DNA of 45,740 nt. It comes from Oscillatoriales cyanobacterium CG2_30_40_61. Lineage in GTDB: Bacteria > Cyanobacteriota > Cyanobacteriia > Cyanobacteriales > Microcoleaceae. The translations under genes and the position numbers were made by a program. Below are positions 38,038 through 43,124 of this stretch, in pieces. The notes beneath the pieces were generated by a model. The model saw only the letters and a list, made by a program, of their open reading frames with translations, made no database searches and was not told the origin of the DNA. The stretch spans positions 1 to 45,740 of the forward strand of contig MNYZ01000060.1 in NCBI GenBank assembly GCA_001873365.1, given 5' to 3'. How positions within the stretch are numbered: the first letter of the stretch is position 1; each line of letters starts with the position of its first letter.

Positions 38038-38424
38038 TTAGATTTCGTCCCAACCACTGACCCCAGAAGACATCACATAGCTGGTGACGCTGGCTTCAAA
38101 GAAATTGGCTTTAGTATGGGCTTCTTTTTTGGTATCCGAGAAGCGTTCTAAATGGGTATAGGGACTTTTACTATACTTTTTATCGGGATAAAGGGGCTCT
38201 AAACCGATAGAACGTAGCCGAATATTTGCTAGATATTTGGTGTATTGTTCGGTACTATATTCCGTGATTCCTAAGATATTATTTCCCACAATATGATTCG
38301 TCCATTTACATTCATGTTCAACGGCGGTATTGAACATTTCATAAATTTGATCAACGGAGTGGGTAAACACTTCCATGGCTTCAGGAATTAATTTTTGGAA
38401 TAACCGAACATGAGAAAGTTCATC
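38038..38424 (-). other. nrdB: nrdB exon 4
   Basis: Encodes residues 243-370, beginning DELSH with iron ligands E244 and H247, and ends with the C-terminal tail SSGVSGWDEI needed for docking to NrdA. Confidence 0.9.
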
Positions 38425-40759
38425 CTTAATATTCAACAAGGGTCGTTAGTCCTTGCCCGTTCTGGTAAAGAACTGCTGAAAGTCACCTTTCAGAATAGAC
38501 TATATCATCTTCCTAATAGGAAGCCCCCCGTTTCGGTTCACTTGAACCTACGCTTTTACCGCTAGTCGTTGCACCTTTAGAATCAATAACTTCCCAAGCA
38601 TCAATCCATGTTTTTCTATGACGAACATTGCTAATAACAGAGCAGTCAACATCAAGCCATTGGGCTAATTCCTTATTAGAACAAGTCGGAAGTCTCTTAA
38701 TAGCTTCAATTCTTTGCTCAATAGGAATTTTACTGTTTAAACCCGAACTATTTTTAACTTGAACGACTTGATTTTCATTCTCGAATTGCTGCCAAACAGA
38801 CTTCAGACGTTTTCTATGACGAATCAGTGAGATATATCGGGAGTGTAACCCATACTTATCAGCAACCTCTTGATTGGTTGCCCCATTGACAAGATCATGG
38901 ATTATTTCCAAATATTGTTCATTAGTGAGTTTAGCCATAGAGTTAGTTTCGGCTGATTTCCCTTGTTTTAATCCTGTTTTGACTGCATGACGGATATTTT
39001 CAGCAGGTGTCACCAACTCAAGATTAGACAGACTATTATTAGCTTTATTTCCATCAATGTGATTGATTTGCAATCCCTGTGGTATTTCCCCGTTAAATGC
39101 TTCCCAAACAACTCTATGAACAAGAAATGTCTTTCCATAGCAACTAATCTGACGATATCCGGCGGTACTTCGGGTCGTCTTCTTAATTCCTTGACCTCTT
39201 ACTTTGAGCATAGAACCATCTTCGGAAACCGTATAAGGTAAATTAGGGTGTTTCGCATCCATGAGCTAAGACATCTATTAGGCTATAGATGAATTATAAC
39301 ATGGGGAAGTTCATCTTTCTACTTGGCTCAGGATTGTCTCAATTGAGAGTTTCCCTGAATTAGAGGGGTTTTCGATTCACGTTACCGTGAAAAGCCGCTA
39401 TGAATTTAACGGTTAATCATTTTGAAAATATCAGCAGATCCCGGCATTAACATCCGTGACGCTAAATTGTAGAAATAAATGAAGCCATTGTAGAAGTAAA
39501 TCCCTTCTAACATATAGTCAGCTAACAGGGAAATAAAGTAATTTTCCAGGGTGGGATTATCCATATATTGTTGATAAATCCCGGCAATAAATTCACAGCG
39601 ATCGCGCAAGACACTATCGGTTTTCCAAAACTCATAAACAAAGGTTCTCCGATCGGATGGAATAATCGTTTCAATCATGTATTGATACAAGGTGTTCAGT
39701 TAGGTTCGCTAATCCTAACCCGCTTTATTCAAGCTGCCATAAGTCACCTTATGGATCAGACTATATCTTCAACCCAATGGGTTGCTCCCCATTTCGAGCC
39801 GCTTGGCTCTACGCCTTTCAGCTAGTCGTTGAACTTTTGACCAATTCAACTTCTTGACCGCTATTAATTAGCGAAAATGCAGTTATCTTGTTTGGTCACT
39901 TAGCTGCTGATTGTCTCTATCGTATATTTTAAAATATTCGAGTGAGATTTTCCAGCAATTAAAGGAGTGATCGATCGCCATTACTGACGAAAGGAGCTAT
40001 CAATTAACTCTGATTGTGCATCGCCTCCTGGGAAGTTTGTTCCGCCATACAAAGACTAATTTCTGGGGCAGTTACACAACTTTTGAGGTGAGGAATATTG
40101 CAGGTTTGAACAGAATCTAAGAAGGTTAAATAACTTAAAATTCCATCAAATGCCCAACGTTCATCGGGAGTTAAGTTAACATAATCCACGACGTCCTGAG
40201 TAATATCTAATTTTTCAGGTCATTTGTGTTCAGTTAGATTCGCTAAGTCTAACCCGCTTGATTCAAGCTGCCATAAGTCACCTTATGGATCGGACTATCT
40301 GATCATCCTTTTAATAGAAAAAGGAGTCCCCCGCTTCGACAGTCAATCGCTTACTGCCTACTCCCCTATAGGGTTAGTCTCTACACCTTCTACTGTTTTT
40401 AATAGTAGCTTGGCACGGTATTGTCTGTAAGGTTAGAGATACTTTTTTTGCCTATAACAAAAATTTTTCTCATGCTAATTCAGAGTTTCACCGTTTTCAA
40501 GGGATTTAGTCTGGGCTACCTAATTAACCCAGAAATTCTCGCGCATTTGTTTATATAAACCCACGGCCCAGGAATAACGCACATCATTTAATTGCATTAA
40601 ATTTGTGGTTTCCCCAAACCAAATAGAACGATGATTAATATCATCATTTCCATTCGGATTGAAAATCGGATTTATCGGCATAGTTAAGGGCTTTTTATGC
40701 CCATTTTTGTCCCTGGCTAGGGATGAAGCAAAGTCTAGGGTCATACTGCTAAAATCCAT
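38038..40759 (-). CDS. nrdB: Class Ia ribonucleotide reductase small subunit, split by three group I introns
   Basis: Joining exons 40759-40527, 40220-40007, 39687-39409 and 38424-38038 (233+214+279+387 nt) gives one frame of 370 residues. NrdB provides the di-iron/tyrosyl-radical cofactor that starts reduction of nucleotides in NrdA. Iron ligands D113, E143, H146, E210, E244 and H247 are intact, as is the radical Tyr150 (EAMHNQSY, equivalent to E. coli Y122) and Trp77 (W48). AGGAG precedes the ATG. The gene lies 51 bp after nrdA, as one operon. Read without splicing it would look like four broken fragments; with splicing nothing is missing. An ordinary pseudogene is therefore unlikely. In vivo splicing is inferred, not seen. 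Confidence 0.93.
38425..39408 (-). mobile_element. Group I intron 3 in nrdB carrying an HNH homing endonuclease (984 nt)
   Basis: P1 is CCGU-U with AGCGG, a U.G at the site and terminal G. P2-like hairpin TCACG-GUAA-CGTGA follows, then P strand TTCAGGGAAACTC and Q strand GACAATCCTGAGCCAAG, identical in form to cyanobacterial group I cores. R strand GCAACGACTAGC (38556-38575 region) and S strand GATGATATAGTC are present. P9 is CTGAAAG-GUGA-CTTTCAG (38476-38493), a perfect stem with GNRA loop. The endonuclease frame fills the loop between Q and R and enters the R region. This element can probably home. Confidence 0.94.
38513..39262 (-). CDS. HNH homing endonuclease encoded in nrdB intron 3
   Basis: The 249-residue protein has an N-terminal NUMOD4-like stretch (1-45) and an HNH nuclease fold (46-95): H49 in LVHRVVWEAF, then N67-H68-x-D70 and N76 in QINHIDGNKANNSLSNLEL. 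Two helix-turn-helix modules follow (about 111-157 and 180-224), each ending in an RHRK-x-x-x-x-W-like sequence. This is the layout of I-HmuI-type enzymes, which nick the intronless allele to start intron homing. Residues 230-249 (GATTSGKSVGSSEPKRGASY) are read from bases that also form the ribozyme R/P8 region, so protein and RNA constrain each other. No strong Shine-Dalgarno is visible. Confidence 0.92.
   Translation of the reverse strand: MDAKHPNLPYTVSEDGSMLKVRGQGIKKTTRSTAGYRQISCYGKTFLVHRVVWEAFNGEIPQGLQINHIDGNKANNSLSNLELVTPAENIRHAVKTGLKQGKSAETNSMAKLTNEQYLEIIHDLVNGATNQEVADKYGLHSRYISLIRHRKRLKSVWQQFENENQVVQVKNSSGLNSKIPIEQRIEAIKRLPTCSNKELAQWLDVDCSVISNVRHRKTWIDAWEVIDSKGATTSGKSVGSSEPKRGASY
39409..39687 (-). 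other. nrdB: nrdB exon 3
   Basis: Encodes residues 150-242, from radical Tyr150 through iron ligand E210 (YMLEGIYFYNGF) to Arg242. The exon end CCGU pairs with the guide GCGG. Confidence 0.9.
39688..40006 (-). ncRNA. Group I intron 2 in nrdB (319 nt, no ORF)
   Basis: P1 is GAGU-U paired with AGCUC, with U.G at the site and terminal G. The core is textbook: Q strand GAGACAATCAGCAGCTAAG, R strand GTTCAACGACTAGC, S strand GAAGATATAGTCTGATCC (rc of 39755-39770). P9 at 39737-39754 is identical to that of intron 1 (CCATAAG-GUGA-CTTATGG). The 3' ~70 nt are about 90% identical to intron 1. The intron starts with an in-frame UAA. Confidence 0.94.
40007..40220 (-). other. nrdB: nrdB exon 2
   Basis: Starts with the last base of codon 78 and continues PEKLDITQD. 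It contains iron ligands D113, E143 and H146 and ends with Ser149, one residue before the radical Tyr. The exon end GAGU pairs with the guide GCUC. Confidence 0.9.
40221..40526 (-). ncRNA. Group I intron 1 in nrdB (306 nt, no ORF)
   Basis: P1 is CUGGGU paired with AGCCCAG with U.G at the 5' site, and the last base is G. P and Q strands of P3-P4 are visible as ACGGTGAAACTCT and CAGACAATACCGTGCC. The P7 strands are GAGACTAACCC and ATAGTCCGATCC. P9 is CCATAAG-GUGA-CTTATGG, a perfect 7-bp stem with a GNRA loop (40271-40288). A second 3' hairpin GTTAGA/TCTAAC is at 40233-40253. No open frame. The intron is a self-splicing ribozyme by family knowledge. Confidence 0.92.
40527..40759 (-). other. nrdB: nrdB exon 1
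   Basis: Encodes residues 1-77 and the first two bases (GT) of codon 78, ending ENFW-V after the E. coli Trp48 equivalent. The exon ends CUGGGU, which pairs with the intron guide AGCCCAG through a U.G wobble at the splice site. Confidence 0.9.
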
Positions 40760-40810: not shown

Positions 40811-43069
40811 TTAATTAGCACAAGCAACGCAACCATCATCGGCTTCTTTGAAACTATCACGCTGTACGGTTCTGACATAATAAACCGCCTTACAGCCTTC
40901 CTGCCAAGCCAAAATTAAGGTATCAAAAATATCCTTAGCCTTGATGGTGCGATCGGGTTCATCAGGAAAATAAACACCTTCATTCAAATTAAACATTAAT
41001 TCCATAGAAATTCCGGTATCAATCCACTTTTGAACCGTCGCCACCGCCTTCACAACAATTTGTTGATTTAGGCTTTTATTTTCCGGGTAAAACCAAAAAT
41101 GATCCTGAAGAAATGGGGGAGCAATGGGAACCGTTCCTTTTGCCCATTTGTCATAGAAAAAACGACTATAACAGGGTAAAATACTGGCGGTACATCCTTG
41201 CACTAAAGAAGAAGATGTGTTAGGGGCGATCGCGGTAATATGAGAATTACGAATCCCATATTTTTGAATATCTAAACTCAATTGTTGCCAGCGTTCTTTC
41301 TGGGCTGCGTGTTGTAAAAACCACTCTACAGATTTCGCCCCAATTAACTTTCCTTGACTCCAAGAACTGCCTTGAAAAGCTGGATAATACCCCCGTTCCT
41401 TAGCAAGTTCCATAGAGGTTTGAGTGCAATAGAAACCGATATCCTCAAACAGATGACTAATTTCGTTTAAATGATTATAGGTTAAGCGATTTTTGGCTAA
41501 CCAATCGGCTAATCCCATCGCCCCAACCCCAATCGTCCGATATTTTTGGTTATGGGTTTTACTAGCTGTAAAGGGTGTGTTAGTAATTTCAATTGTATTA
41601 TCTAACATTCGCACCGCAATTTCACAGACTTCTGGTAGTTCTTCCTGTTCAATATTAGCTAAATTCAAAGAATCCAAATTGCAAGTATGTGCTTCTTCTC
41701 CGGGTTTAACATTCGACCAGCTTTCCTGGCACAAATTCCCCCCCGGAATATAGCCTTCATGTTGATTAGGATTAGCCCGATTTGAAGTATCTTTAAACCA
41801 CAAATAGGGCATTCCTGTTTCTACTTGAGAACGCATGATCAACTTAAATAAATCCCGGGCATTAACCTTCTTATAAAGGGTAATTTCCGTATCTAAGTTA
41901 GCTTCTATTTTTTGATAAACACTTTCAAAGGATTCCCCCCAAGTTGTAGCTAATTCAATCCCCAGTTTTTCCCTAACTTCATAGGGATCAACCAGTGTCC
42001 AATCCTCTCGACTGATCACCCGACGCATGAACTCATCAGGAATGACTAATTGAGGAAAAATATCATAGGCTTTGCGACGTTGATCGCCATTTTCAGTCTG
42101 CATTTCTAGGAATTCAGGCACATCTAAATGCCAGACATCTAAACTAACCGTAATCGCCCCCGCCCGACGTCCGCCTTGATTAACTGCGATCGCCGTATCA
42201 TTTAATAATTTAATCCAAGGAATCACACCCCCCGAGGTGTTTTGTTTTCCCATCACCCAACTGCCCGTTGACCGCACTCGACTAACATTTGTACCCACAC
42301 CGCCGCCATTTTTAGAAATTCTAGCAGCATCTTTAATTGTATCAAAAATGCTTTCCAAATTATCATCCATTGCCGTAATAAAACAGCTACTCAAGGAGCC
42401 GTGAGGAATCCTTAAATTTGCTAAAATCGGGGTAGCCAAGGAAACTTTCCGTTGGGCGATCGCTTGATAAAACTTTCTCGCCCAGAATAACCGCTTTTCT
42501 GGTTTTTCTACAATTGCTAATAGCAACGCACAGGTTAATAGAGCTTCTTGGGGTAATTCATCCGTCAATAAATAGCGTTTACTTAACAAAACAGCCCCAG
42601 CATAATCATAATCTTTGTCCCATTCGGGGTTAATCCAACTTCCGGCCTCTTGAAGTTCTTCGGCGGTGTAAGTCAGAATCCGAACGTCATATTGTCCCTG
42701 TTCCACTTTATTATGAACCGTTCTGCAATAGTCCCCGTATTCGTAGCCCCGGCGGACTAAGGTATCTTTCCATACACTCCAAATATGTAGTCTTCCGGCC
42801 ACATAACGCCAGTTTGGGTCAGAGGGACTGCATAACTCTAAGGCACAATTAATTAAATTATCCTGAATTTCTCGGGTAGTCACACCATGGCGCAGACGGG
42901 TGGTGAGTCCCGCTTCTAGGGTAATCGGATTCGCCGACCTTCCCTCACAGGCCCAGTTAACGACTTGTCGAATTTTAGAGACATCTAATGGGGCCAGACT
43001 ACCATCTCGTTTAACGACTTTAATATTTTTATTAGGGGTGATGGTAAGGGATAGTGATGTTGATTGCAT
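40811..43069 (-). CDS. nrdA: Class Ia ribonucleotide reductase large subunit
   Basis: The 752-residue catalytic subunit starts at ATG 43069; a TTG two codons earlier also fits the frame. An N-terminal ATP-cone (residues ~16-105) gives dATP/ATP control of overall activity. Active-site Cys229 (SLSSCFITAMDD) and Cys463 (EEAHTCNLDSLN) form the reducing pair; Cys447 in NLCQES carries the thiyl radical next to Glu449. Radical-transfer Tyr730-Tyr731 (VYYVRT) are present. The C-terminal redox pair is Cys747-x-x-Cys750. It is uninterrupted, unlike its partner nrdB 51 bp downstream. NrdR-box-like sites lie upstream. Confidence 0.95.
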   Translation of the reverse strand: MQSTSLSLTITPNKNIKVVKRDGSLAPLDVSKIRQVVNWACEGRSANPITLEAGLTTRLRHGVTTREIQDNLINCALELCSPSDPNWRYVAGRLHIWSVWKDTLVRRGYEYGDYCRTVHNKVEQGQYDVRILTYTAEELQEAGSWINPEWDKDYDYAGAVLLSKRYLLTDELPQEALLTCALLLAIVEKPEKRLFWARKFYQAIAQRKVSLATPILANLRIPHGSLSSCFITAMDDNLESIFDTIKDAARISKNGGGVGTNVSRVRSTGSWVMGKQNTSGGVIPWIKLLNDTAIAVNQGGRRAGAITVSLDVWHLDVPEFLEMQTENGDQRRKAYDIFPQLVIPDEFMRRVISREDWTLVDPYEVREKLGIELATTWGESFESVYQKIEANLDTEITLYKKVNARDLFKLIMRSQVETGMPYLWFKDTSNRANPNQHEGYIPGGNLCQESWSNVKPGEEAHTCNLDSLNLANIEQEELPEVCEIAVRMLDNTIEITNTPFTASKTHNQKYRTIGVGAMGLADWLAKNRLTYNHLNEISHLFEDIGFYCTQTSMELAKERGYYPAFQGSSWSQGKLIGAKSVEWFLQHAAQKERWQQLSLDIQKYGIRNSHITAIAPNTSSSLVQGCTASILPCYSRFFYDKWAKGTVPIAPPFLQDHFWFYPENKSLNQQIVVKAVATVQKWIDTGISMELMFNLNEGVYFPDEPDRTIKAKDIFDTLILAWQEGCKAVYYVRTVQRDSFKEADDGCVACAN

Positions 43070-43124
43070 AGTCAATATTTTTACCCAATGCTATAATGAA
43101 TTGACGCCTTACCACTGTACTCTA

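Follow-up and report, generated by a model that had tools for sequence, protein, structure and literature searches.

Three group I introns predicted in the sole nrdB gene of a Planktothrix genome

How can a gene for the small subunit of ribonucleotide reductase serve the cell when its DNA holds no intact reading frame? This question is raised by nrdB in a 45,740-nucleotide (nt) stretch of contig MNYZ01000060.1 (the window), whose source genome, deposited as Oscillatoriales cyanobacterium CG2_30_40_61, is that of a Planktothrix species. The gene lies on the minus strand (40759–38038) and consists of four exons of 233, 214, 279 and 387 nt, which form 1113 nt, or 370 amino acids (aa) plus a stop codon, only if the three intervening stretches (306, 319 and 984 nt) are taken out. 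An earlier note on this DNA had described just such an exact 370-residue NrdB, and its coordinates, lengths and splice sites are all borne out here. The most probable answer, to which we assign a probability of about 95%, is that the three stretches are separate group I introns, which would remove themselves from the transcript of a single-copy nrdB to leave an mRNA for NrdB, and whose persistence would be driven by homing.

The product predicted from the joined exons is recognized by Pfam as Ribonuc_red_sm (230.9 bits). Each removed stretch is preceded by a T and has G as its last base, in agreement with the note, which had placed each intron after a U. Intron 1 is in phase 2 and splits a codon, intron 2 is inserted directly before Tyr150 in the motif MHNQSY, and intron 3 falls between Arg242 and Asp243 (INR/DELSH); in coding sequence (CDS) numbering these positions are sites 233, 447 and 726, respectively. 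An in-frame stop is encountered by codon 3 in intron 1 and by codon 1 in introns 2 and 3, and inteins were ruled out as an explanation by this early stop in each intervening stretch together with the match to an RNA family described below. Because identical junctions, to the base, are present in other genomes, the insertions are not due to chance or to an assembly artefact.

Table 1. Features of the nrdB region in the window, with positions counted from its first nucleotide
Feature	Coordinates	Strand	Details
nrdB exon 1	40527..40759	-	CDS nt 1-233, 3' end ...TTCTGGGT; spliced reading frame
Group I intron 1	40221..40526	-	306 nt, without long open reading frame; P1 CUGGGU/AGCCCAG, P10 GGU/ACC; RF00028 58.4 bits
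nrdB exon 2	40007..40220	-	CDS nt 234-447; spliced reading frame
Group I intron 2	39688..40006	-	319 nt, without long open reading frame; P1 GAGU/GCUC, P10 GAUA/UAUC; RF00028 89.1 bits
nrdB exon 3	39409..39687	-	CDS nt 448-726; spliced reading frame
Group I intron 3	38425..39408	-	984 nt, HNH gene inside; P1 CCGU/GCGG; two RF00028 matches flank the open reading frame
Intron 3 open reading frame, candidate HNH homing endonuclease	38513..39262	-	249 aa; Pfam HNH_3 69.1 bits
nrdB exon 4	38038..38424	-	CDS nt 727-1113 including stop; spliced reading frame
nrdA, uninterrupted, directly upstream of nrdB	40811..43075	-	Pfam Ribonuc_red_lgC 461.3 bits, lgN, ATP-cone

The type of intron was assessed with the Rfam group I model RF00028, whose curated cut-off is 50 bits. 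Introns 1 and 2 both score above it (Table 1), and the core strand GAAGATATAGTC that the note had singled out is located within intron 2. Intron 3 gave two sub-threshold matches of 35.7 bits (E 8.4e-7) and 38.8 bits (E 9.9e-8), which flank its open reading frame (ORF); the note had expected the model to hit all three introns, which holds at the cut-off for introns 1 and 2 but only below it for intron 3. The low score is probably due to the inserted gene, because the short, 297-nt form of this intron in Planktothrix PCC 11201 (G004) scored 102.6 bits.

Helices were drawn by hand on the window introns and then counted over relatives at the same site, which comprised 12 of 15 rows at site 233 (three ORF-bearing rows were excluded), 7/7 rows at site 447 and 11 distinct rows at site 726 (RI_101 having been dropped beforehand); for sites 726 and 447 just the two intron ends were aligned. 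Standard pairs were observed in 726/748 cells at site 233 (intron 1), 281/300 cells at site 447 (intron 2) and 488/504 cells at site 726 (intron 3), compared with 37–43%, 33–47% and 34–48%, respectively, with one strand slid. Compensatory changes are found in P1, P3, P4, P6a, P7.2, P8, P9 and P9.2 at site 233 and in P2, P7, P8, P9 and P9.2 at site 726. At site 233, P1 covaries, exon base with guide base, as G-C in seven rows and A-U in five, these rows being related, and a P7 pair at site 726 is T-A in five and C-G in five of the 11 rows. The P1 pairs are kept in every counted row at all three sites, in all three introns P1 has a U.G wobble where the 5' exon ends and the last base is G, and the core helices P3, P4–P6, P7 and P8 are present with covariation (P6 was counted at site 233 only, and P8 as drawn at site 447 is not supported). 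For P10, two pairs are kept in 12/12 rows and a third in 8/12 at site 233; at site 447 the outer pair is kept in 5/7 rows and the other three in 7/7, and the P10 of intron 3 (UUCAU/AUGAA) was drawn by eye only. Introns of subgroup IA (IA2-like) carry additional stems, P7.1/P7.2, in the stretch from P7 to P3; at site 233 a P7.2-like stem is kept in 12/12 rows. The sequence supports what the note had proposed in terms of group I identity, U.G in P1, terminal G and a functional spliced product.

In the proposed mechanism, each intron would fold as a group I ribozyme and excise itself from the transcript with an external guanosine. Its guide sequence would pair with the 5' exon to form P1, in which the U.G pair marks the cut. 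The freed U at the exon end would then attack after the last intron G, the 3' exon being aligned by P10, and the product would be the mRNA encoding the 370-residue NrdB. A number of observations weigh against this reading. Besides the sub-threshold scores of intron 3, the hand-drawn helices lean towards the window sequence that served as their template, and the rows in the helix counts are related to one another. At site 726, several rows break P9.1 and a single row loses four of the five P7 pairs; at site 447, P8 as drawn is mostly unpaired. Intron 1 has AGATAGTC, not ATATAGTC, as do 6/6 Planktothrix introns at site 233. Splicing of the three introns is inferred from their sequence.

The changed base of intron 1, which sits just before the P7 strand, also speaks for a variant in which the introns are removed only with protein helpers and would not self-splice in vitro, a dependence known for many group I introns. 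However, the cores are compact with the expected helices, and a review (PubMed Central, PMC; PMC12702839) lists a group I intron from a Nostoc punctiforme reductase gene among self-splicing introns, so that we consider this variant unlikely. Alternatively, each fragment could be translated on its own and the pieces could come together as a split protein, with no RNA splicing involved. There is a precedent in nrdA of phage Aeh1, described as split but functional, without a self-splicing intron (PMC3653736). However, the codon split by intron 1, the stops at the start of each intron, and the folds, P1/P10 pairing and recurrent exact sites, which indicate removal at the RNA level, make this alternative extremely improbable.

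That the gene is still in use is suggested by the rest of the genome and by selection. The window genome (4.82 Mb, 119 contigs) is 99.07% complete; in it no PF00268 (NrdB) match was found outside this nrdB, the single PF02867 match is the adjoining nrdA, with no second large-subunit (NrdJ-like) match, and there is no NRDD match that would indicate NrdD. Comparison of the window exons with eight other Planktothrix genes gave ratios of nonsynonymous to synonymous substitution (dN/dS) of 0.016–0.092 without stops, and the median over 36 pairs of nine Planktothrix nrdB genes was 0.074 (this set leaves out G006, whose gene spans two contigs). Judged by these ratios, the window nrdB is under purifying selection, and since the searches turned up a single NrdA but neither a further NrdB or large-subunit gene nor an NrdD, removal of the introns looks obligatory. 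The lack of an intact nrdB frame in the DNA is also what a decaying pseudogene would present, its pieces never joined and another reductase in use, and the group I cores could be dead. However, in view of the low dN/dS and the stop-free exons the pieces do not look like pseudogenes, the genome offers no match to a substitute reductase, and the helices are maintained through compensatory changes; that nrdB is a relic of this kind is scarcely credible.

The same insertion sites are used in other cyanobacteria. Our site set consisted of 33 interrupted nrdB genes (14 + 19 from two comparisons), in which introns were counted by position and ends. In 30 of these genes there are 47 free-standing group I introns at only four sites, viz. 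15 at site 233, seven at site 447, 12 at site 652 and 13 at site 726, window gene included. Site 652 lies just after LEGIYFYNG and site 726 directly before Asp243 in RDELSH; these two motifs and MHNQSY presumably hold the radical tyrosine and iron ligands, as in E. coli R2. In 45/47 introns the reading frame runs into a stop no more than four codons past the 5' splice site. Rfam reports 28/28 introns in the genes that were run at E<=0.001 and, at the cut-off, 11/19 of the remainder; the eight missed introns are all 891–1134 nt long and so carry an insert. Fourteen more insertions, at 10 positions, start with the group II-type sequence GTGYG within 2 nt; the aligner may have misplaced these insertions by 1–2 nt. 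In Symploca sp. SIO3C6 (L083 6907–9926), a group II intron lies exactly at the 5' splice site of the site-652 group I intron and forms a mixed twintron.

A census by exon 4 scan, which is biased towards genes like that of the window and so does not sample at random, retained 80 of 86 related loci, with 48 uninterrupted, 24 interrupted and eight incomplete nrdB genes (24/72 classifiable genes interrupted). The interrupted genes, which include four from Planktothrix and one without its 5' end (L134), are broken at one (13 genes), two (8), four (2) or five (1) positions. Two loci that the aligner had presented as interrupted nrdB (L127 and L131) were rejected, as both hold whole genes. In a set of 59 genomes, window genome included, NrdB was present in 24.

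To relate the introns to each other, a tree was constructed for 35 introns of sites 233, 447 and 726 based upon their first 95 and last 165 nt; the 12 introns of site 652, whose 3' end is laid out differently, were omitted. The introns sort by site in this tree, those of site 233 with support of 100/100, those of site 447 as one group (74/98) and those of site 726 in two groups, and the site label changes twice, which is the minimum possible (shuffled mean 15.8). Based upon this grouping, the three window introns are therefore assigned to separate site-bound lineages.

A competing explanation is that the three introns were copied from one another within nrdB. The 3' domains of introns 1 and 2 after P7 are 0.85–0.89 identical, and an identical 18-nt P9 hairpin is present in 6/6 Planktothrix introns at site 233, 3/3 at site 447 and the Geminocystis intron at site 233. 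However, over their first 120 nt introns 1 and 2 show an identity of only 0.35; this value and the site-grouped tree led us to reject the idea that intron 2 arose mainly as a copy of intron 1. We attribute the likeness to a 3'-end exchange between these two introns of the same gene, which alone would explain it; copying among the three is very improbable and separate site-bound lineages are preferred. Since the two 3' domains are alike, P10 would be needed to keep exon 2: the difference in P10 (GGU/ACC versus GAUA/UAUC) should prevent its loss, and skipping of this 214-nt exon would shift the reading frame.

Within Planktothrix, nrdB is interrupted in 10/10 genomes searched, with one to five introns each: three in the window genome, four in P. 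rubescens PCC 7821 (G001), three in G002, two in G003, four in PCC 11201, one in G005 (73% complete), two in G006, five in P. paucivesiculata PCC 9631 (G007, L045), two in G008 and four in G009. The total comprises 21 group I introns at the four exact sites and nine group II introns at scattered sites, and every one of these 30 introns matches RF00028 or RF00029 at E<=0.001, several group I introns below the cut-off. Three group I introns are present in five of the 10 genomes, window included, three of which have one or two group II introns besides; in P. paucivesiculata PCC 9631 the five introns are three of group I and two of group II. The second intron of G006 is also of group II; its 3' end is found on a different contig, ahead of the last exon. 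Eight group II introns are uncut and measure 2.40–2.56 kb, and reverse transcriptase and maturase domains were found in 5/5 group II ORFs tested. Presence and absence of the introns varies between close relatives.

The introns would persist because the sequence around each insertion site is conserved and can thus be recognized by a homing endonuclease. Genes of the HNH, GIY-YIG and LAGLIDADG families enter and leave such introns; introns 1 and 2 contain none. The ORF of intron 3 has the HNH domain of a homing endonuclease (Table 1), and its protein would by this token be an active endonuclease. At site 726, HNH_3 is also present in G043 and RI_101 by Pfam, and Planktothrix G009 carries LAGLIDADG_2 where the window has HNH, with short forms of 297 nt in G004 and 315 nt in G007. 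HNH_3 was found in 3/3 introns tested at site 447, GIY-YIG in 3/4 tested at site 652, and LAGLIDADG_2 at site 233 in Geminocystis. Long and short intron forms occur at each site, and together with the apparent swapping of endonucleases this is what a homing cycle would be expected to produce. The 177-aa ORFs of two Planktothrix site-233 introns (L038 1030–1560 and L039 933–1463) matched no Pfam family at E<=0.001; both have CxxC motifs and could represent a kind of endonuclease that Pfam lacks.

In single cases introns are clearly more alike than the exons around them: at site 447 between Planktothrix G002 and Snowella (intron identity 0.89, exon 0.78) and at site 726 between Planktothrix G004 and a Prochloron metagenome-assembled genome (0.88 and 0.73). 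However, intron identity exceeds exon identity in only 69/214 cross-genus pairs, so that general lateral spread is not supported when judged by identity alone.

Spread by homing, with phages sometimes as carriers, would account for the repeated use of the same four sites among cyanobacteria and for a phage insertion at one of these sites. The HNH protein of intron 3 is 46% identical over 166 aa to an HNH protein of Alicyclobacillus phage KKP_3916 and 42% over 163 aa to YosQ of the bnrdF intron of Bacillus phage SPbeta, and viral contigs contain six weak relatives. In KKP_3916 nrdB (L148) Arg242 marks the junction of the two NrdB pieces, in agreement with the site of intron 3 (CGT/...G/GAT); unlike the window gene it has a single insertion, in the phage of a Firmicutes host. 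This insertion had no Rfam match at E<=0.01, and its DNA is only weakly like these introns (best with site 233), both of which argue against the link; that the insertion may be a group I intron is suggested by this weak likeness and not by Rfam. The 3' NrdB piece and the preceding HNH gene of KKP_3916 (L148 1376–2486) are annotated merely as hypothetical proteins. The SPbeta bnrdF intron, which a table in PMC1995217 places among the group I introns with an HNH gene, likewise combines a small-subunit gene with a related HNH protein, but by eye its site is ~8 nt upstream of that of intron 3. The T-even phage nrdB intron with I-TevIII (RB3, L147) likewise belongs to group I and interrupts nrdB, it reportedly carries an HNH endonuclease, and its core resembles intron 2 (71.1% over intron 2 nt 170–314); unlike the window introns it lies, by eye, ~6 nt from site 652, which is unused in the window. 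Intron 2 also matches, at 80% over 43%, the DNA that separates two nrd alpha pieces in Bacillus phage phiNIT1, and four plasmid records partly resemble it. A blastn comparison of intron 1 with 50,697 phage records gave no match, a further point on the negative side. On balance, phages as carriers of the introns are plausible.

As regards novelty, Meng et al. in 2007 reportedly described a group I intron with an insertion sequence in the Nostoc punctiforme reductase, and a Twort phage gene reportedly has three introns. Unlike the window nrdB, the three-intron genes of Twort and of Brochothrix phage A9 are phage genes, neither on a bacterial chromosome nor nrdB. Three introns in A9 nrdE are given in PMC3653736. 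The N. punctiforme group I intron in the ribonucleotide reductase (RIR) gene is already published, according to PMC12702839, PMC1995217 and PMC3984707; it shares with the window introns its type and a cyanobacterial reductase host, but is the only intron of its gene, whereas the window nrdB has three. A 2014 review (PMC3984707) mentions introns in some cyanobacterial nrdE genes and, in citing Arthrospira NIES-39, for which group I introns in protein-coding regions have been noted, names nrdE, not nrdB. Arthrospira nrdB itself (L048; L049 from PCC 9108) resembles the window gene in having introns at sites 233 and 726 (RF00028 60.0–72.3 bits), but differs in having two, of 315–358 nt. No description of Planktothrix nrdB introns was found in the open-licence PMC literature. 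The note's view that three group I introns in one essential cyanobacterial gene seem new holds for their density, but not for their presence in a cyanobacterial reductase gene, which is in print, nor as a feature of this genome alone, as half of the Planktothrix genomes searched share it. The new elements are the intron density, the co-occurrence of two intron classes and an essential host gene present as a sole copy; the kind of intron itself is known.

These results concern an essential gene, the sole one of its kind in the genome tested, that is interrupted throughout the Planktothrix genomes searched. A broader picture is speculative and rather improbable as a whole: Planktothrix nrdB would be a standing reservoir of splicing elements, and where no other reductase is found, as in the window genome, the whole deoxynucleotide supply would depend on a series of as many as five ribozyme reactions, of two different chemistries. 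In this picture the guanosine dependence of the group I introns may couple NrdB output to the guanosine nucleotide pool, with phage-borne homing reloading the same codons. The variation among close relatives, with or without endonuclease genes and with two intron classes in one gene, makes gain, loss and cost testable, and the system would offer self-splicing introns of a bacterial protein gene in culturable bloom-forming cyanobacteria. Interrupted genes can also be overlooked, as in the labelling of the KKP_3916 3' NrdB piece as a hypothetical protein.

Upstream of nrdB, nrdA is also interrupted in the cyanobacterial loci L085, L093 and L104 (also L066, L098 and L102), with gaps at codons ~301 and ~330 of window NrdA (RF00028 60.0–85.5 bits) and, in L085, a third gap near codon 460. 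Two other group I matches in the window genome, on contigs C54 and C57, were rejected as nrd introns, being by eye introns of tRNA-Leu(UAA) and tRNA-Arg(CCU), respectively, both of which are known kinds of group I intron; ARAGORN found no tRNA at these two loci. Lastly, a weak group I match of 27.5 bits, below the cut-off, is present on contig C15 (L007 1501–1795) beside a histidine kinase-like gene.

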